DNA of 64,000 nt from assembly GCF_007990245.1 (NCBI RefSeq), contig NZ_BJWG01000007.1, positions 1-64,000 on the forward strand, in the 5' to 3' direction. Positions 18,037 through 27,089 of this stretch are shown in pieces. How positions within the stretch are numbered: position 1 is the stretch's first letter; the number at the start of each line of letters is the position of its first letter. The translations under genes and the position numbers were made by a program. The notes below the pieces were generated by a model, which searched no databases, was not told the origin of the DNA, and saw only the letters and a list, made by a program, of their open reading frames with translations. Source of the stretch: Cellulomonas composti. Lineage in GTDB: Bacteria > Actinomycetota > Actinomycetes > Actinomycetales > Cellulomonadaceae.

Positions 18037-18512
18037 GCGAAGTGCTCCTGGGTACCGCGGACCACCGTCCACACGTGTGGCGGTCCTCGGTCGGTCGGTC
18101 GTCGCCCACGCCTCGCGGGGCGACGGAAGTCGTCGGTCGTGGCTCCGTGCCGGGCCGGCACCATCGCCTGCCGGTCCTCCCAGGCCCTGGACGGGGCCGG
18201 ACGACCTGGCGGCGGCTGGCGCGCGCGACGCGCTGACTACGAGCTCACGGGTTCGGCACGCGGTGTGGTCGCGTATCGAACCGCGGTCAGTATCGCACAG
18301 CACGGCCACCTCGGCCCGCGGCACACGGCACGTGGGCACGCGATCGCACGGGTCCCGGTTTGACGACGGCACGTCAGTACACGGGACCTTGGTCCCAGAG
18401 GCAGACTTGACCCCGTCCTAGCGTTCCCTCAGGCCCACCCGCCGTTCCGGGGCTCACCGTCGCGGCCGGCAGGCGGGCCGACCGCCCCCCGGCTCGTCGC
18501 TCGGAGACACAC
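18037..18512. other. Divergent intergenic region between rne and cydA
   Basis: This 476-bp stretch has no credible gene. It must hold the rne promoter (left-going) and the cydA promoter (right-going). Recognisable elements are the DosR-type palindrome at 18383-18396, an inverted repeat GGTTCG/CGAACC (18250-18255 and 18277-18282), and a possible cydA -10 TAGCGT at 18419-18424. I see no Rex-type TGTGAA/TTCACA operator. Confidence 0.6.
18383..18396 (+). promoter_or_regulatory. DosR/DevR-type box upstream of cydA
   Basis: GGGACCTTGGTCCC is a perfect 14-bp palindrome. It matches the mycobacterial DosR core GGGACTWWAGTCCC at both GGGAC/GTCCC half-sites and in overall length. It lies 116 bp upstream of the cydA GTG and about 22 bp before a possible -10 (TAGCGT, 18419-18424), a spacing that suits an activator. 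A DosR-like regulator and DosS-like kinase are encoded at the end of the same locus. Binding is inferred, not shown. Confidence 0.55.
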
Positions 18513-20021
18513 GTGGACGCCCTCGCACTCGCCCGCTGGCAGTTCGGCATCACGACCGTCTACCACTTCATCTTCGTGCCGCTGACGATCGGGCTCGCCC
18601 CGCTCGTCGCGATCATGCAGACGGCGTGGGTGCGGACGGGCAACGAACGCTGGCTGCGGCTGACCAAGTTCTTCGGCAAGCTCCTGCTCATCAACTTCGC
18701 GATCGGTGTCGCCACCGGCATCGTGCAGGAGTTCCAGTTCGGCATGGCGTGGAGCGAGTACTCGCGCTTCGTCGGCGACGTGTTCGGCGCCCCGCTCGCG
18801 ATGGAGGCGCTCGCCGCGTTCTTCGTCGAGTCCACGTTCCTGGGCCTGTGGATCTTCGGCTGGGACAAGCTGCCCAAGAAGATCCACCTCGCGTGCATCT
18901 GGGCCGTCGCGATCGCGACGAACCTGTCCGCGTTCTTCATCCTCGCGGCGAACTCGTGGATGCAGCACCCCGTGGGCACGACGTACAACTTCGAGACCGG
19001 CCGTGCGGAGATGACCGACATCGGCGCGGTGCTCACCAACCCGACCGTGCTGGCGGCGTTCCCGCACACCATCACCGCGGCGTTCCTCACGGCGGGCACG
19101 TTCGTCGCCGGGATCGCGGCGTGGTGGATGGTCCGCAAGGTCCGCCAGGGCGACGAGGCGACGGCGCGTGACGTCTACCGCCCGGCGGTCGTGCTCGGCC
19201 TGATCACCATGATCGTCGCGGGCATCGGCGTCGCAGTCTCCGGTGACGCGCAGGCCAAGCTGATGTTCGAGCAGCAGCCCGCCAAGATGGCCGCCGCGGA
19301 GGGGCTGTGCGAGTCCACCGACGGTGCGTCGTTCTCGCTGCTCGCGATCGGCGACCTCACCAACGACTGCGCGGGCGTCACGCACCTCATCGAGATCCCC
19401 GGCTTCACGTCGTTCCTCGCGACCGGCGACTGGAACGGGCACGTGCGCGGCGTCGACGAGCTGCAGGACTACTACGCGCAGTGGATCTCCGACTGGGAGC
19501 AGGAGAACGGCGTCGCGCCGACCTTCGACGACGACACGCGCTTCTACCCCAACCTCGCGGTCACGTACTGGTCGTTCCGGCTCATGATCGGCTTCGCGAT
19601 CGGGTCGGCCGCGCTCGCGCTCGCGTCGCTGTGGCTGCTGCGCAAGGGTTCGGTGACCGGCAAGGTGTGGTTCGGCCGGCTCGGCATCGCCGTCATCGCG
19701 ACCCCGTTCCTGGCCTCCTCGTTCGGCTGGATCTTCACCGAGATGGGTCGCCAGCCGTGGTCGGTGGCGCCCAACCCCAACCCCTCGGGGATCGACGGCG
19801 TGTGGCTCATGACGCGGCACGGCGTCTCGGTGGTCGCGGGCGCCGGGACCATCCTCACCTCGCTCGTCGGGTTCACGCTGCTGTACGGCGTGCTCGCGGT
19901 GCTCTGGTTCAAGCTGATGAAGCGGTACGCCATCGAGGGTGTCGCTGCCGGCGAGAAGGACCCGAGCCCGGACGGTCGCTCCGGCGACGACTCCGACGCC
20001 CCCCTGTCCTTCGCGTACTGA
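18513..20021 (+). CDS. cydA: Cytochrome bd oxidase subunit I (502 aa)
   Basis: The quinol-oxidising subunit, with about nine membrane segments. Haem ligands are placed as in the family: H18 (VYHFIF) for b595, and H185 (FPHT) and M411 (TEMGRQPW) for b558. The GRQPW motif is at 412-416, and E106 in VESTF fits the conserved acid near the dihaem site. The Q-loop region is of the short type. The enzyme reduces oxygen with high affinity without proton pumping. The start is GTG at 18513, with GGAG about 7 nt upstream. Confidence 0.98.
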   Translation: MDALALARWQFGITTVYHFIFVPLTIGLAPLVAIMQTAWVRTGNERWLRLTKFFGKLLLINFAIGVATGIVQEFQFGMAWSEYSRFVGDVFGAPLAMEALAAFFVESTFLGLWIFGWDKLPKKIHLACIWAVAIATNLSAFFILAANSWMQHPVGTTYNFETGRAEMTDIGAVLTNPTVLAAFPHTITAAFLTAGTFVAGIAAWWMVRKVRQGDEATARDVYRPAVVLGLITMIVAGIGVAVSGDAQAKLMFEQQPAKMAAAEGLCESTDGASFSLLAIGDLTNDCAGVTHLIEIPGFTSFLATGDWNGHVRGVDELQDYYAQWISDWEQENGVAPTFDDDTRFYPNLAVTYWSFRLMIGFAIGSAALALASLWLLRKGSVTGKVWFGRLGIAVIATPFLASSFGWIFTEMGRQPWSVAPNPNPSGIDGVWLMTRHGVSVVAGAGTILTSLVGFTLLYGVLAVLWFKLMKRYAIEGVAAGEKDPSPDGRSGDDSDAPLSFAY

Positions 20022-20033
20022 GGAGAGACGACC

Positions 20034-21149
20034 ATGGAGCTCACCGACGTCTGGTTCGTCCTCATCGCCGTCCTGTGGACCGGCTACCTCGTGCTCGAGG
20101 GCTTCGACTTCGGCGTGGGCATGCTGCTCGGGCTGCTGCCCCGCAAGGAGGACCGCGAGCGCGAACGCCGCGTCATGATCAACTCGATCGGCCCGGTCTG
20201 GGACGGCAACGAGGTGTGGCTGCTGACCGCCGGCGGCGCGACGTTCGCGGCGTTCCCCGAGTGGTACGCGACGCTGTTCAGCGGGTTCTACCTGCCGCTG
20301 TTCCTCATCCTCATCGCGCTGATCGTGCGCGTGGTCGCGTTCGAGTGGCGCGGCAAGATCGACTCGCCGCAGTGGCGCGCCTGGGCCGACCGCGCGCTCA
20401 TCTTCGGCTCGTGGCTGCCCGCCGTGCTGTGGGGCGTCGCGTTCGGCAACATCGTGCGCGGCGTCGAGCTCGACGCGGACCACCAGTACGTCGGCGGGTT
20501 CTTCGCGCTGCTCAACCCGTTCGCGCTGGTGGCGGGCGCGGTCACCACCCTGATCTTCCTCACGCACGGCGCCGTGTTCCTCGCGCTCAAGACGGACGGT
20601 GCGATCCGCGAGCGCGCGGCCGCCACGGCCGCGCGGCTGTCGGTCGTCACGCTCGTCGTCGCCGGTGCGTGGGCGATCTGGCTGCAGCTCGCGTACTCGG
20701 GCAAGGGCTGGACCTGGGTGGCCGTCGCGGTCGCGGCCGTCGCCCTCGTGCTGCTGGTCCTGGCCACGCGTGCCCGACGAGAAGGGCCCGCGTTCGTCGC
20801 GTCCGCCGTCGCGATCGTCGGCGCCGTGGTGCTCATCTTCGGCTCGATGTACCCCGACGTGATGCCCGCGCTCGACCCGGCGAACTCGCTCACGGTCGAC
20901 AACGCGTCCTCGACCGACTACACGCTCACGGTCATGACCTGGGTCGCGGTCGTGCTCACCCCGCTCGTGCTGCTCTACCAGGGCTGGACGTACTGGGTGT
21001 TCCGCAAGCGGCTCACGGCCGAGCACATCCCCGCGTCCGTCGGCCTCACGTTCGACCCGCCGGCCGAGCCGGTCGCGGTCGGGTCTGGTTCGGGCTCGGG
21101 TTCGGACGGCTCGGGTCCCGACGACTCCGCGGGGACGCCCGGGGCGTGA
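20034..21149 (+). CDS. cydB: Cytochrome bd oxidase subunit II (371 aa)
   Basis: Membrane subunit with the opening ELTDVWFVLIAVLWTGYLVLEGFDFG, here split as LTDVWFVLIAVLWTGY and LEGFDFGVGM, and the GNEVWLLTAGG motif. It ends in a Gly/Ser-rich tail. It begins 12 bp after cydA with AGGAGAG upstream, and its stop overlaps the next start (GTGA at 21146-21149). Confidence 0.97.
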   Translation: MELTDVWFVLIAVLWTGYLVLEGFDFGVGMLLGLLPRKEDRERERRVMINSIGPVWDGNEVWLLTAGGATFAAFPEWYATLFSGFYLPLFLILIALIVRVVAFEWRGKIDSPQWRAWADRALIFGSWLPAVLWGVAFGNIVRGVELDADHQYVGGFFALLNPFALVAGAVTTLIFLTHGAVFLALKTDGAIRERAAATAARLSVVTLVVAGAWAIWLQLAYSGKGWTWVAVAVAAVALVLLVLATRARREGPAFVASAVAIVGAVVLIFGSMYPDVMPALDPANSLTVDNASSTDYTLTVMTWVAVVLTPLVLLYQGWTYWVFRKRLTAEHIPASVGLTFDPPAEPVAVGSGSGSGSDGSGPDDSAGTPGA

Positions 21150-22855
21150 AGCCGCTCGACCCGCGCCTGCTGCGGCACGCGCGCGCCGCCCGTGGCTACG
21201 CCGCGCTGACGGCCGTGCTGGGCCTGCTCACGGCGGCGCTGGTCGTCGCGCAGGCACTGCTGCTGGCGCACGCGCTGGGGCGCGCGGTCGACGACGGCGT
21301 CGCGCTGGGCGCCGGCACATGGGACGCCGTCGCGCCGCTGGTCGGCTGGCTCGTCGTCGTCGTGCTGGCGCGGGCCGTCGTGAGCGCCGCGCAGGAGCGC
21401 TACGCGCACCGCGCCGCGACGCGCGCCGTCGGCGAGCTGCGCGAGGCCGTCGTGGCCCATGCGGTCGCGCTCGGACCCCGGCGGGTCGCGGCGGGCGGCG
21501 GTGCGCAGCTCGTCACGCTCGCCACGCGCGGCCTGGACGCGCTCGAGCCCTACTTCGTGCGCTACCTGCCGCAGCTGTTCCTCGCGGCCACGGTCACGCC
21601 CGCGACGCTGCTCGTCGTGCTGGGGCTGGACTGGGTCTCGGCCGCGGTCCTCGTGCTCGTGCTGCCGCTCGTGCCGATCTTCATGTGGCTCGTCGGACGG
21701 CTCACGCAGGGTCGCTCCGAGCGCGGGCTCGCGACGATGCAGCGGCTGTCCGCCCAGGTCCTCGACCTGCTCGTCGGCCTGCCGACCCTGCGCGCGCTCG
21801 GGCGCGAGCGCGGACCCGCGGCGCGCGTGCGGGCCCTCGGCGACGCGCACCGGACCGCGACCATGGGCACGCTGCGGATCGCGTTCCTGTCCGGCATGGT
21901 GCTCGAGCTGCTGACCACGCTGTCGGTCGCGCTCGTCGCGGTCGGCATCGGCCTGCGGCTGGTCGCCGGCGAGCTCGACCTCGTGACCGGGCTCGCGGTG
22001 CTGGTCCTGGCGCCCGAGGTGTTCGCTCCCCTGCGTGCCGTCGGCGCGCAGTTCCACGCGTCCACCGACGGCGTCGCGGCCGCGCAGGCGGCGTTCGAGG
22101 TCCTCGACGAGCCGCTGCCCGCCGCCGGGACGGCGCCCGCCCCCGACCTGGCGACCGCGAGCATCGTCGTCACGGACCTCGCCGGTCCCGGCGGCACACC
22201 CGACGGGCTGCGGCTCACGCTCGGACCGGGCCGGGTCGTCGCGCTCACCGGACCCTCGGGCGGGGGGAAGTCCACGACCGTCGAGATCCTCCTCGGCCTG
22301 CTCGCGCCCGTGCGCGGCACGGTCCGCCTCGTCCCGCTCGCGTCGTCGGACGCGTCCACCCCCGACGAGCGCGAGTCCGACGAGCGTGCATCCGACGAGG
22401 GTGTCGACGTGCGGGACGTCGAGCGGGGCTCCTACTGGCGCCAGGTCGCGTGGGTACCGCAGCGCGCGGTCGTCGAACCCGGCGTGCTGTCCGAGGTGGT
22501 CGGAGGGGACGACGAGACGCGCGCGGCCGCGGCCGCGCTCACCGGGCTGGCCGACGTCGTCGCGGACCTCCCGCAGGGCTGGGCGACGCGCGTGGGCCGC
22601 GGCGGGCACGGGCTGTCGGTCGGTCAGGTGCAGCGCGTCGCGCTGACCCGCGCGCTGCAGTCGTCGGCCCCGCTCGTCGTGCTCGACGAACCGACCGCGC
22701 ACCTGGACGCCGCGGCGCAGGACGTCGTGCTCGCCGCGGTGCAGGCGCTGCGCGCGCAGGGCCGCACCGTGCTGCTCGTCGCGCACCGGCCGCAGGTGCT
22801 CGCGCTCGCCGACGAGGTGCACTCGCTCGCCGCGCTCGAGACGGTGACCGGATGA
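21146..22855 (+). CDS. cydD: ABC exporter subunit CydD (569 aa)
   Basis: An N-terminal six-helix exporter domain is followed by an ABC ATPase with Walker A GPSGGGKST, Q-loop VAWVPQ, signature LSVGQVQR and Walker B LVVLDEPTAHLD. CydDC exports thiols (cysteine, glutathione in other bacteria) and is needed to assemble cytochrome bd. An unusual insert of about 30 residues, rich in Asp/Glu/Ser (SSDASTPDERESDERASDEG), sits between Walker A and the Q-loop. GTG at 21146 overlaps the cydB stop. Confidence 0.93.
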   Translation: MKPLDPRLLRHARAARGYAALTAVLGLLTAALVVAQALLLAHALGRAVDDGVALGAGTWDAVAPLVGWLVVVVLARAVVSAAQERYAHRAATRAVGELREAVVAHAVALGPRRVAAGGGAQLVTLATRGLDALEPYFVRYLPQLFLAATVTPATLLVVLGLDWVSAAVLVLVLPLVPIFMWLVGRLTQGRSERGLATMQRLSAQVLDLLVGLPTLRALGRERGPAARVRALGDAHRTATMGTLRIAFLSGMVLELLTTLSVALVAVGIGLRLVAGELDLVTGLAVLVLAPEVFAPLRAVGAQFHASTDGVAAAQAAFEVLDEPLPAAGTAPAPDLATASIVVTDLAGPGGTPDGLRLTLGPGRVVALTGPSGGGKSTTVEILLGLLAPVRGTVRLVPLASSDASTPDERESDERASDEGVDVRDVERGSYWRQVAWVPQRAVVEPGVLSEVVGGDDETRAAAAALTGLADVVADLPQGWATRVGRGGHGLSVGQVQRVALTRALQSSAPLVVLDEPTAHLDAAAQDVVLAAVQALRAQGRTVLLVAHRPQVLALADEVHSLAALETVTG

Positions 22856-24669
22856 CGACGTCCGAGATCCGTGCCGACCGCGGCACCGTCCGGCGCGCGT
22901 TCCGGCTGCTCGAGGTGGACGGGCGCCGGTTCGCGGCCGCGGTCACGCTCGGCGTCCTCGCGCTCGGGTGCGCGGTCGCGCTCGCGGCCGTGTCCGCGTG
23001 GCTGATCGCACGCGCCTCGCAGATGCCGCCGGTCCTCACGCTGTCGATCGCGACAGTCGCGGTGCGGGCGTTCGGCATCGGGCGCGGCGTGCTGCGGTAC
23101 GTCGAGCGGCTCGTCTCCCACGACCTCGCGCTGCGGGGCATGACGACGCTGCGCACCACGCTCTACGAGCGGCTCGCCGCCGGACGCGCCGACGGCCTGC
23201 TCGCGGTGCGGCGCGGTGACCTGCTGGCCCGCGTCGGCGCCGACGTCGACGCCGTGGGCGACCTCGTGGTCCGCGCGCTGCTGCCGGCGGCCGTCGCGGG
23301 CGTGCTCGGTGTGGTCACCGCGGGCGCGATGACGCTGATCTTCCCGCCCGCCGGCCTCGCGCTGGCCGCGTGCCTGGTGCTGGCCGGTGTCGTCGCACCT
23401 TGGCTCGCGGCACGTGCCGCGGCCCGCACCGAGACCGCGGCGGCCGACGCCCGCGCCGCGGCCGGGGCCGCCGCGCTCGGGCTACTCGACGACGCCGGAC
23501 CCCTCGCGGTCGCCGGGCGCGTGCCCGACGAGCTCGCGTCGCTGCGGGACGCCGACACGCGCACGGCCCGGGCCGTGGACTCCGGCGCCGGGCCGGCCGC
23601 GCTCGCCACCGGGCTCGGCCAGCTCGCGGTCGGGCTCGCGGTGCTGGCCGCGCTGGTCACCGGCGTGCCCGCGGTCGGTGCCGGCACGCTCGACCCGGTC
23701 CTGCTCGCGGTCGTCGTGCTCACGCCCCTCGCGGCGTTCGAGGCCACGGCGCTGCTGCCCGCAGCCGCGATCCAGCTGCACCGCTCGCGTGCGGCCGCCG
23801 CTCGGGTGCTCGCGCTCGTCGAGCAGACCGATCCCGCGGCCGACGGCGCCGCCCCCGCCGCCGACCCCGGGACACGCCTGGTGCCGGTACCGGCCACTGC
23901 TCGTTCGTCGGACGTGCGGACCGACACCGCGACGACCGCCGGCCCGGTGCCCGCCCTGCGCGCACGCGGACTCGCGGCGGGCTGGCCCGGGCGCGAACCC
24001 GTCGTCGCCGGGATCGACCTCGACCTGACGCCCGGACGCGCGATCGCCGTCGTCGGGCCCAGCGGCGTCGGCAAGACCACCCTCCTGCTCACGCTCGCGG
24101 GGCTGCTCCCCCGCGCCGCCGGGACGCTCGACCTCACCGTGCCCGGCGCGGACCCGGCCGAGGTGCGCGATCCCGCCACCGACCCGCAGCGCGCGGACCG
24201 GCTCGTCGTCGTCACCGAGGACGCGCACGTGTTCGGCACGACCGTCCTGGAGAACCTGAGGGTCGCGCGCGGCGACGTGACGCCGGACGAGGCGAGCGCG
24301 GCGCTGCGGTCGGTCGGGCTCGACGGCTGGCTCGCGAGCCTTCCCGCGGGCCTCGACACGCCGCTCGGCACCGACGCGCGCACCGTCTCGGGCGGTGAGC
24401 GCCGTCGCCTGCTCGTCGCACGCGCGCTCCTGCACCCGGCCCCCCTGCTGCTGCTCGACGAGCCCACCGAGCACCTCGACGACGCAGCCGCCGCGCGCGT
24501 GCTCGCGGCCCTGCGCGCCGATCCCGCGCGCGGCGTGCTCGTCGTGACCCACCGCGAGGCCGACCTCGACCTGTTCGACGAGGTCGTGCGCCTGGACCCG
24601 CGCGGGCAGGACGCACCCGAGGGTGGCGACGGCTACCGTGCTGTCGTGACCCCCGGAACCCACCCATGA
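22852..24669 (+). CDS. cydC: ABC exporter subunit CydC (605 aa)
   Basis: Partner half-transporter of CydD. The exporter domain has the segment AVSAWLIARASQMPPVLTLS typical of CydC. The ATPase has Walker A GPSGVGKTT, signature VSGGERRR and Walker B LLLLDEPTEHLD. ATG at 22852 overlaps the cydD stop (ATGA), and its own stop overlaps the kinase start in the same way. Confidence 0.95.
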   Translation: MTTSEIRADRGTVRRAFRLLEVDGRRFAAAVTLGVLALGCAVALAAVSAWLIARASQMPPVLTLSIATVAVRAFGIGRGVLRYVERLVSHDLALRGMTTLRTTLYERLAAGRADGLLAVRRGDLLARVGADVDAVGDLVVRALLPAAVAGVLGVVTAGAMTLIFPPAGLALAACLVLAGVVAPWLAARAAARTETAAADARAAAGAAALGLLDDAGPLAVAGRVPDELASLRDADTRTARAVDSGAGPAALATGLGQLAVGLAVLAALVTGVPAVGAGTLDPVLLAVVVLTPLAAFEATALLPAAAIQLHRSRAAAARVLALVEQTDPAADGAAPAADPGTRLVPVPATARSSDVRTDTATTAGPVPALRARGLAAGWPGREPVVAGIDLDLTPGRAIAVVGPSGVGKTTLLLTLAGLLPRAAGTLDLTVPGADPAEVRDPATDPQRADRLVVVTEDAHVFGTTVLENLRVARGDVTPDEASAALRSVGLDGWLASLPAGLDTPLGTDARTVSGGERRRLLVARALLHPAPLLLLDEPTEHLDDAAAARVLAALRADPARGVLVVTHREADLDLFDEVVRLDPRGQDAPEGGDGYRAVVTPGTHP

Positions 24670-26387
24670 GCGACGAGCAGCCCGCGGACCTCTCGCGCGG
24701 CCTGTCGCCCGTGACCGGCATCGCGACCCAGCTCACCGGCGACCCGCTGACGGACCTGCTCGACGCGATCCTCGCGGTCGCCTCCGAGCTCGAGCTGCCG
24801 GCCGTGCTGAACAAGTTCGTGCAGGTCAGCGCCGAGCTGACCGGCGCCCGCTACGCCGCGATCAACGTGCTCGACGCACGCGGCGAGTCGACGACGTTCG
24901 TCTACACCGGCATCCCCACCGCGGTCGCCCGGATGATGTCGCACGGCCCGCACGCGCAGGGCGTGCTGGGCAAGATCCCGGCGCACGGCGCGCTGCGGCT
25001 CGGCGACCTCACGGAGCACCCCGCCTTCCAGGGCTGGCCCGCGCACCACCCGCCCATGGGCTCGTTCCTCGGTGCGTCCGTGCGCGTCGGCGAGCGGGTG
25101 TTCGGCCAGCTCTACCTGTCCGAGAAGGCCGGCGGGTTCACGGCCGAGGACGAGGAGACCGTCGTCGCTCTCGCCGCCGCCGCGGGCGTCGCGGTGTCGA
25201 ACGCGCAGCTCTACGCCGAGGCGGCGCGACGCGAGCACTGGCTGCGCGCCGGCCAGGAGATCGCGACGATGCTGCTCGAGGGCATCGACGAGGAGGACGC
25301 ACTCGCGCACATCGCGGCGACCGCCCGTGCCGTCTCGGGCGCCGACACCGCCGCGCTCGCCCTGCCCGGCCTGGGTGGTCGGCTGTACATCGAGCTCGCC
25401 GACGGCTACCTGGCCGACACGCTCGTCGGGACCGAGATGGTCGAGGGCGGACGCGCCTGGATCGTGATGACCGAGGGGCACGGCCTCGTCTCCGCCTCGC
25501 TGTCGGCGTCGCGCAACGTCAAGGTCCAGGTCATGCGCTCGTTCGGGCCGGCGATGTTCGCCCCGCTGCAGACGTCCGGCCGCGGTGTCGGCGTGCTCAT
25601 CCTGCTGCGTCGCATCGGCGCGCTCCCGTTCGAGCCGAGCGACCTGGCCACCGCCGAGTCGTTCGCGTCGCAGGCCGCGCTCGCGTTCGTGCTCGCCGAG
25701 GCCCGGCACGCGCAGGACGTGGCCGCGCTGCTCGACGAGCGCGAGCGCATCGCGCGCGACCTGCACGACCTCGCCATCCAGCAGCTGTTCGCGACGGGCA
25801 TGCAGCTCGAGACGGCGCGCCGGCGGGCCGCGCGCGGCGTCGACCCCGCCGAGCTGACCAGCATCGTCGAGGAGGCGCTCGACAACGTCGACTCGTCCGT
25901 GCGGCAGATCCGTCAGATCGTCTACGCGCTGCGCGACCCCGACGCGGCGGCCGGGCTCACCGAACGACTGCGCCGCGAGGCGTCGCTCGCCCGCACCGGC
26001 CTCGGGTTCGCGCCGTCGCTCGTCGTGACGCTCGACGGCAACCCGCTCGGCGACGACGGGCTCGACGAGGACCGCCTCGACGAGCGCGTCAGCGTCCCGT
26101 TGACCGACGACGCCGTCGCGGTCGTGCGCGAGGGCCTGGCCAACGCCGCACGCCATGCGCACGCCGCGTCGGTGCAGGTCACGGTCGCGGTGGCGGGGAC
26201 AGCACCCACCGGGACCGTGCGCATCGAGGTCCAGGACGACGGCCTCGGGCTGCCCGCGTCGCGCGAACGTCGGTCCGGGACCGGCAACCTCGCCTCACGC
26301 GCGCACCAGCACGGTGGGACGTTCACGCTCGGCACCGCGCCGGACGGTCGGGGCACGCTCCTGACCTGGCAGGCGCGCCTGACCTGA
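24666..26387 (+). CDS. Two-GAF sensor histidine kinase, DosS/DosT (DevS)-like (573 aa)
   Basis: GAF-A spans about 38-186 and GAF-B about 205-345. Then come a HisKA_3 dimerisation domain with the phospho-acceptor H367 (RIARDLHDLAIQQL) and an HATPase with N-box REGLANAARHA (488-498) and G-box DDGLGLP. GAF-A carries HHPPMGSFLG (H127/H128), the segment that in mycobacterial DosS/DosT includes the proximal haem ligand, so gas or redox sensing is likely. No membrane segment. ATG at 24666 overlaps the cydC stop, making it the fifth coupled gene of the cyd operon. Its partner is probably the convergent regulator 5 bp away. Haem binding is inferred. Confidence 0.9.
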   Translation: MSDEQPADLSRGLSPVTGIATQLTGDPLTDLLDAILAVASELELPAVLNKFVQVSAELTGARYAAINVLDARGESTTFVYTGIPTAVARMMSHGPHAQGVLGKIPAHGALRLGDLTEHPAFQGWPAHHPPMGSFLGASVRVGERVFGQLYLSEKAGGFTAEDEETVVALAAAAGVAVSNAQLYAEAARREHWLRAGQEIATMLLEGIDEEDALAHIAATARAVSGADTAALALPGLGGRLYIELADGYLADTLVGTEMVEGGRAWIVMTEGHGLVSASLSASRNVKVQVMRSFGPAMFAPLQTSGRGVGVLILLRRIGALPFEPSDLATAESFASQAALAFVLAEARHAQDVAALLDERERIARDLHDLAIQQLFATGMQLETARRRAARGVDPAELTSIVEEALDNVDSSVRQIRQIVYALRDPDAAAGLTERLRREASLARTGLGFAPSLVVTLDGNPLGDDGLDEDRLDERVSVPLTDDAVAVVREGLANAARHAHAASVQVTVAVAGTAPTGTVRIEVQDDGLGLPASRERRSGTGNLASRAHQHGGTFTLGTAPDGRGTLLTWQARLT

Positions 26388-26392
26388 ACCCG

Positions 26393-27070
26393 TCAGCGAC
26401 CGGGCTCGGCCCGCCAGCTGCTGTGCTTGCGCGCGGCGACCCACGCGGCCACCTGCGTGCGCCGCTGGAGGCCCATCTTCGCGAGCAGCGACGTGATGTG
26501 GTTCTTCACGGTCTTCTCGGCGACGCCCAGGCGCTCGGCGATCTCGCGGTTCGACAGGCCCTCGCCGATGAGCTCGAGCACACGCATCTCGCTCGGCGTG
26601 AGGTTCTCGGTCGGGTCCTCGTGACCGGCCTTGCGGCGCGTGACGGTGCGCTCGTCGAGCAGCGTGCGGCCCGCGGCGACGTGCTTGATCACCTCGGTGA
26701 TCTCCGCACCGCGCACCGACTTGAGCAGGTACGCCGAGGCGCCCGCCTCGAGCGCGGCGGCCACCGCGTCGTCGTCGTCGAACGAGGTCAGGACGATCGC
26801 GCGCACCTCGGGCTGCTTCTCGCGCACCTGGTGCAGCAGGTCGATCCCCGTGCCGTCGGGCAGCTGGAGGTCGACGAGCATCACCTGCGGGCGCACGAGG
26901 CTCGCTCGTCGTACGCCGTCGGCCACGGAGCCGGCCTCGGCGACGACGGTCATCCCGTCGGTACGTTCGACGACCTCCGCGATGCCTCGACGGACGACCT
27001 CGTGGTCGTCGACGATCATCACCGTGATGGGGCCTGACTTGGCGGGGCTGGCGGTCCTGGGATCGGGCAC
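26393..27070 (-). CDS. NarL/DosR-like response regulator (225 aa)
   Basis: Receiver domain with acidic pocket DDHE, phospho-acceptor D67 (LVDLQLPDG) and K117 (LLKSVRG). The C-terminal LuxR-type HTH reads LTPSEMRVLELIGEG then AEKTVKNHITSLLAKMG and LQRRTQVAAW, which closely follows the DosR recognition region. GTG at 27070 is preferred; a GATACG-type -10 lies just upstream on this strand, so the message may be leaderless. Frames starting at 27103 or 27127 would overlap the divergent dehydrogenase gene. The regulator converges with the kinase gene (5-bp gap). Predicted target: the palindrome at 18383-18396. Confidence 0.9.
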   Translation of the reverse strand: MPDPRTASPAKSGPITVMIVDDHEVVRRGIAEVVERTDGMTVVAEAGSVADGVRRASLVRPQVMLVDLQLPDGTGIDLLHQVREKQPEVRAIVLTSFDDDDAVAAALEAGASAYLLKSVRGAEITEVIKHVAAGRTLLDERTVTRRKAGHEDPTENLTPSEMRVLELIGEGLSNREIAERLGVAEKTVKNHITSLLAKMGLQRRTQVAAWVAARKHSSWRAEPGR

Positions 27071-27089
27071 GGTGGCATCGTATCCAAGC

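Follow-up and report, generated by a model that had tools for sequence, protein, structure and literature searches.

Organisation of the cyd locus

The locus described here raises a simple question: is the 14-base motif that precedes the cytochrome bd operon of Cellulomonas composti the operator of the two-component pair encoded at the other end of the same locus? GGGAC and GTCCC half-sites separated by a 4-base spacer make up the mycobacterial DosR consensus, and a motif of this kind, GGGACCTTGGTCCC, had been picked out in a first-pass annotation. Based on the window (the whole 64-kb stretch of DNA that was analysed), the remainder of the genome and a collection of relatives, we consider it highly likely that this box serves the adjacent DosRS-type pair, and that the pair governs respiratory and fermentative genes, its kinase closing a feedback loop.

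The coordinates of the features are compiled in Table 1. The genes cydA, cydB, cydD and cydC and the kinase gene follow one another in this order on the forward strand, the regulator gene is convergent with the kinase gene, and a divergent gene of the RNase E/G family lies to the left of cydA. The start of cydD overlaps the stop of cydB by 4 bases, and overlaps of the same length join cydC to cydD and the kinase gene to cydC. A reading of positions 21319-24669 as a fused CydDC protein was rejected, because the first half of that stretch lies in the wrong frame and cydD and cydC are separate genes; the CydDC queries used for the relatives and the named loci derive from this rejected fusion, and their matches mostly represent CydC.

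Table 1. Features of the cyd locus, with positions counted from the first base of the window
Feature	Position	Strand	Evidence or remark
Second conserved element ACGAC-N4-CGTCAG	18363..18377	.	Box-anchored alignment of 32 promoters
DosR-type box GGGACCTTGGTCCC	18383..18396	.	Upstream of cydA; conserved in most Cellulomonas genomes
Probable -10 hexamer TAGCGT (TANNNT) of the cyd promoter	18419..18424	+	22 bases after the box
cydA, cytochrome bd subunit I	18513..20021	+	PF01654, E 4.5e-158; GTG start
cydB, cytochrome bd subunit II	20034..21149	+	PF02322, E 7.7e-111; TIGR00203 above cut-off
cydD, ABC exporter subunit	21146..22855	+	TIGR02857, 532 bits (cut-off 435)
cydC, ABC exporter subunit	22852..24669	+	TIGR02868, 550 bits (cut-off 329)
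DosS/DosT-like sensor histidine kinase, GAF-GAF-HisKA_3-HATPase	24666..26387	+	Pfam domains; ATG overlaps the cydC stop (ATGA)
DosR/DevR-like LuxR-type response regulator	26393..27070	-	Best PDB match DevR 3c3w, E 1.6e-52; helix AEKTVKNHITS

Form and chance expectation of the box

The half-sites and the 14-bp length ascribed to the motif were both present, and the distance of 116 bp between its end and cydA was confirmed against the GTG at 18513. Its description as a perfect palindrome is accurate as to location and for a perfect 6-bp inverted repeat around the TT centre, but not over all 14 bases.

Within the window, exact GGGAC-N4-GTCCC occurs as a single copy, the cydA box. Shuffling the window yielded a mean of 0.30 exact sites, and 27 of 100 shuffles carried at least one, so that a lone copy is not improbable and proves little. 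The whole genome contains 18 exact sites, as opposed to 2 for the reversed pattern and to 6 and 4 for control spacers of 3 and 5 bases, respectively. However, a 6-base spacer gives about 16 sites (20 for spacers 5 and 6 together, less 4) and extrapolation of the window's dinucleotide rate predicts about 17 per genome; the raw count is therefore not clearly above chance, and we rejected it as evidence. The spacer-6 figure is probably inflated by coding sequence, since GAC and GTC share one reading frame at that spacing.

Taken by themselves, the shuffles and the near-expected genome count would suit a chance match, with cydA otherwise controlled or constitutively expressed. We find this reading scarcely credible. 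Sites with at most one mismatch number 257 in 3.54 Mb, so that about 0.03 are expected per 400 bp, whereas such a site precedes cydA in 28 of 32 Cellulomonas genomes possessing the regulator, amid flanks that are otherwise poorly conserved and at a near-fixed distance from a -10 hexamer (see below). Position and conservation are stronger evidence than the number of sites.

Conservation of the box within the genus

We searched 58 genomes, of which 36, including that of C. composti, belong to Cellulomonas. Five genomes gave no CydA match at the threshold, and the other 53 provided 57 cydA upstream regions (the best match of each genome, plus 4 second copies). For the genus, 35 genomes with a cydA region were compared over 400 bp, a close orthologue being defined as a regulator at least 81% identical to that of the window. 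A cydA box with at most one mismatch was found in 28 of the 32 genomes carrying such an orthologue (C. composti included; 15 exact) and in 0 of the 3 without one (G005, G021 and G023; Fisher P = 0.005, in a test that ignores phylogeny, the counts not being independent because the genomes are related). The boxes of these 28 genomes lie 101-159 bp before the start of the CydA match. In G026, G033 and G035, the box is kept in the same place with 2 mismatches, while none of the four second CydA copies has one.

The three genomes without a close orthologue have kept cydABDC, and the kinase, the regulator and the box are all absent from their locus. Each of them (loci L299, L300 and L301) encodes another DosR-type regulator, of about 47% identity and with the helix EKTVKNY. 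Joint absence of this kind speaks against a reading in which the box is a true, conserved cydA operator that belongs to another regulator, the DosRS-like pair being linked to the locus in some other way. In favour of that reading, G017 (L285, G017:C2:436500-446800) has the kinase, the regulator and its helix, yet no box before cydA or adhE. The G017 kinase is 65% identical to that of the window.

Spacer usage, expressed as spacer-4 sites divided by the average for spacers 5 and 6, follows the regulator as well. The median of this ratio is 1.76 in the 33 genus genomes with an orthologue, compared with 0.6, 1.0 and 1.25 in the three without, and it is higher in those 33 than in 10 genomes lacking a close orthologue (the same three plus 7 order-level genomes that lack a DosR-like match; P = 4e-6, not corrected for phylogeny). 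Two genomes have the regulator and no spacer-4 excess, namely G017 (ratio 1.0) and G004 (0.73).

Architecture of the cyd promoter

Alignment of 32 promoters on the box revealed a common downstream hexamer and a second upstream element, the remaining flanks being poorly conserved. A possible -10 about 22 bp after the box had been pointed out earlier, and TAGCGT is indeed found there. Among the first 30 loci, 26 bear a box, and a TANNNT hexamer follows it in all 26, starting at +23 in 22 promoters, at +24 in 2 and at +25 in 2. The centre of the box lies about 30 bp before the hexamer; at this spacing, the box would take the place of a -35 element, which suits an activator contacting RNA polymerase.

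Sequence alone does not reveal the direction of regulation, and a regulator that represses cydABDC and the kinase gene through the box, low oxygen relieving the repression, would use the same site. We judge this improbable, since a placement at -35 would be the usual layout of an activator and DosR/DevR is an activator in mycobacteria.

The second element, ACGAC-N4-CGTCAG, occurs in most of the aligned Cellulomonas promoters, about 20 bp upstream of the cydA box from centre to centre, and its spacing does not fit DosR sites. Near cydA, no match to the Rex operator TTGTGA-N6-TCACAA was found with up to 3 mismatches, nor was a CRP-type site, and both results count against control of the box by a regulator other than the DosR-like one.

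The DosS/DosT-like kinase and the DosR-like regulator

The kinase and the regulator that had been recognised at the far end of the locus were both substantiated by domain matches and by sequence matches to proteins of solved structure. The first GAF domain of the kinase matches 2vzw (annotated as "probable histidine kinase response regulator", which we take to be DosT) with an E value of 1.9e-31, and DevS (4ynr/2w3d) with E values of 5e-30 to 8e-30, the HPPM histidine being kept. Residues aligned to the proximal His149 and the distal Tyr171 of DosS are also kept, while Asn and Leu stand at the positions of Glu87 and His89 (aligned positions derived by counting on the 2w3d chain from its construct limits). 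In DosS, His149 is the proximal heme ligand, and replacement of Glu87 by Gly or Ala gives a stable oxy complex (PMC4082495). Judged from these residues, the kinase may reasonably be expected to sense oxygen directly.

The regulator consists of a receiver domain (PF00072) and a LuxR-type helix-turn-helix domain (PF00196). Among solved structures, DevR 3c3w ranks first, ahead of VraR and NarL; among NCBIfam families NarL is closest, below every cut-off shown. GTG at 27070 is the preferred start, the open reading frame extending to 27127. TACGAT lies 6 bases before this GTG (27068-27085), and the gene may be leaderless.

The recognition helix has the core EKTVKN in common with that of DevR (AEKTVKNYVSR), and in the DosR helix the Lys/Lys/Asn residues make the DNA contacts. 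From 27 regulator-like matches in the genome of C. composti, 25 loci were fetched and 16 helices could be read; among these 16, the DosR recognition sequence is present in this regulator alone. That none of the 15 other helices is DosR-like is a further point against ownership of the box by another regulator, as is the fact that its half-sites and spacing are those of the DosR family, exemplified by an entry in the site list of Streptomyces OsdR (PMC5069765). All 109 orthologue loci read (29 from relatives and 80 named) encode the helix EKT[VI]KNH.

Mycobacterial DosR is autoregulated through its own box. Near the regulator gene of the window, no site with at most one mismatch was found. Of 29 relatives given, 27 were located and read, and 4 of these carry such a site within 500 bp ahead of the receiver motif.

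Linkage and box beyond the genus

Outside Cellulomonas, genomes whose regulator is 60-77% identical carry the cydA box in 3 of 7 cases, those whose regulator is 46-54% identical in 6 of 7, and order-level genomes that have CydA but no DosR-like match at E 1e-45 in 0 of 4. We also inspected the best 80 of 574 named regulator loci, which come from Cellulomonas, Actinotalea, Sanguibacter, Georgenia, Actinomycetaceae and others. In these best 80, the kinase is present in 72 and CydA in 53; for the 62 not ended by a contig edge, the figures are 59 and 50. The linkage of regulator, kinase and cyd genes is thus widespread.

A matrix derived from 27 of the 28 genus boxes was used to scan the 300 bp before cydA in the 50 of these 80 named loci that were usable. 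In 20 of the 21 loci whose regulator identity is at least 76%, no more than 5% of equally long stretches within the locus scored as high as the best match before cydA, or higher; this group is not independent, because the matrix comes from genus boxes and some of the named loci belong to the same strains. Below that identity, the same held for 11 of 29 loci, several of the 11 scoring low.

In the distant loci, mostly of Actinomycetaceae, the canonical cydA box is often missing. Among the 71 named loci with a kinase match, the phospho-histidine is kept in 71, the heme-aligned His in 42 and the Tyr in 61 (3 unreadable for each of the latter two). Many kinases of loci L161-L214 (mostly Actinomycetaceae) lack the heme-aligned His, and most of these loci also lack the cydA box. 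Overall, the box was seen in 21 of 30 named loci with the His and in 3 of 17 without it (3 unreadable), an association that may only reflect relatedness. In the distant, mostly Actinomycetaceae loci, the circuit may use a different site or respond to a different signal.

Other sites and the predicted regulon

Of the 18 exact sites in the genome, 12 are intergenic, and a start codon was called 9-162 bp from each of these. The gene caller used is crude and leaves 19% of the window non-coding; against this share the excess is marked (binomial P = 1.6e-5), while against the spacer-3 and spacer-5 controls it is not significant (12/18 vs 4/10; Fisher P = 0.17). Many equally good palindromes at random positions had been named in the first-pass annotation as an argument against the circuit. 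The number of sites, 18 and close to chance, goes some way in that direction; the intergenic position of two thirds of them and the conservation of the cydA site point the other way.

The intergenic boxes precede adhE (two sites), cydA, a pyruvate:ferredoxin oxidoreductase (PFOR)-like gene, pntA and feoB, and also a zinc alcohol dehydrogenase/aminotransferase pair, lipA/flavodoxin, acs, a thiolase gene, a GNAT acetyltransferase gene and a GntR regulator gene. For the 6 sites inside called coding sequence, no evident link emerged (5 of the 6 reading frames scanned).

Of the 31 genus genomes with a regulator orthologue, 26 have a box before adhE, as does 1 of the 3 without (G004 gave no AdhE match, and the fragmented G011 was left out). 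G021 has a 1-mismatch box before adhE despite lacking the close regulator, which lends some support to another owner of the box; but this genome encodes the second DosR-type protein (about 47% identity, EKTVKNY) mentioned above. Taking both sides together, we regard ownership by another regulator as unlikely, and prefer the DosR-like regulator of the locus. Upstream of adhE, the genome of C. composti has a pair of exact boxes at a distance of 61 bp (L131 1501-1575, G000:C10:67567-67641), and several relatives have two adhE boxes (at most one mismatch) 15 or 61-62 bp apart.

For the PFOR-like gene, a box was present in 8 of 9 genomes examined, out of 10 with a match. The PFOR-like protein (L130 1-4443, G000:C5) has 1481 amino acids, scores 393 bits, below the NCBIfam family cut-off of 911, and is found in 10 of the 58 genomes, C. 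composti included. Boxes before pntA were seen in 13 of 27 examined genus genomes with an orthologue and in 0 of 3 without. Based on these sites, adhE and the PFOR-like gene are probably under the control of the DosR-like regulator too, as perhaps are pntA and feoB in the genome of C. composti.

Universal stress protein (USP) genes are typical Dos targets, and mycobacterial boxes lie upstream of them. Here no exact box was found within 700 bp before the USP matches (7 of 8 examined); 1-mismatch sites are located at -99 (C2:154056) and -548 (C21). USP genes are thus weakly represented among the sites. Overall, the regulon is probably one of respiration and fermentation rather than of dormancy.

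Proposed circuit

In the circuit that we propose, low oxygen (or NO/CO) would activate the kinase through a heme-binding first GAF domain, and the kinase would phosphorylate the convergent DosR-like regulator. As a phosphorylated dimer, the regulator would then bind GGGAC-N4-GTCCC at the -35 position and recruit RNA polymerase, leading to transcription of cydABDC and the kinase gene. As the kinase gene is the last of the cyd operon, the sensor would be made together with the high-affinity oxidase, a positive feedback. The earlier suggestion that a DosR-type site is used by the adjacent pair agrees well with the relatedness of the proteins, the helix, the conservation, the joint absence, the -10 spacing and the sites before genes of anaerobic metabolism. 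The suggestion of a closed circuit finds support in a particular form, with the kinase gene at the end of the cyd operon and a regulator gene that has no box of its own.

What appears to be new is the arrangement itself, in which the sensor is encoded inside the oxidase operon and the regulator outside it, and fermentation genes are likely to be controlled along with the oxidase. Among the matches listed for the open literature, we found no prior description of a DosR-type system in Cellulomonas or Actinomyces. The arrangement provides a testable oxygen-limitation regulon for Cellulomonas. In a broader perspective, it is on balance plausible that Cellulomonas and related Actinomycetaceae share a DosRS system built into the cyd locus (cydABDC-dosS with a convergent dosR) and governing an oxidase and fermentation regulon, in which oxidase and sensor form one feedback unit, in which case the mycobacterial dormancy regulon would be a branch of a more ancient switch for oxygen limitation.

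Comparison with known systems

In Streptomyces, cyd is a Rex target. The Rex operator differs from the box, and the cydA region of the window differs from Rex-controlled cyd in having no Rex-like site. Streptomyces Rex is described as a redox-linked repressor of aerobic metabolism genes (PMC5355995).

The locus resembles OsdK-OsdR of Streptomyces coelicolor in its DosR-family regulator and in a palindrome of the form GGGNC-N4-GNCCC. The list of OsdR sites includes GGGGACGATCGTCCCC. OsdR differs in its consensus, AGGGCCGATCGGCCCT, and in its regulon, which comprises stress and development genes; the term "cyd" does not occur in the main text of the regulon paper (PMC5069765).

The locus also resembles mycobacterial DosS/DosT-DosR (DevS-DevR). 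The regulator is nearest to DevR and has the EKTVKN helix core; the kinase has two GAF domains, HisKA_3 and HATPase domains and a His aligned to His149; and the box has GGGAC/GTCCC half-sites with a 4-base spacer. The two systems differ in that Asn and Leu replace Glu87 and His89 of DosS, in that the kinase gene lies inside the cyd operon with the regulator gene separate, convergent and without a box, and in having the cyd operon as predicted target. For M. smegmatis, cydAB has been reported to lie outside the DevR regulon, being similarly induced without devR (data not shown in that report), and to be induced through CRP (PMC7739888). Since cytochrome bd is reportedly not a DevR target there (PMC7739888), a DosR-type system apparently wired directly to this oxidase bears on the evolution of the tuberculosis dormancy switch.
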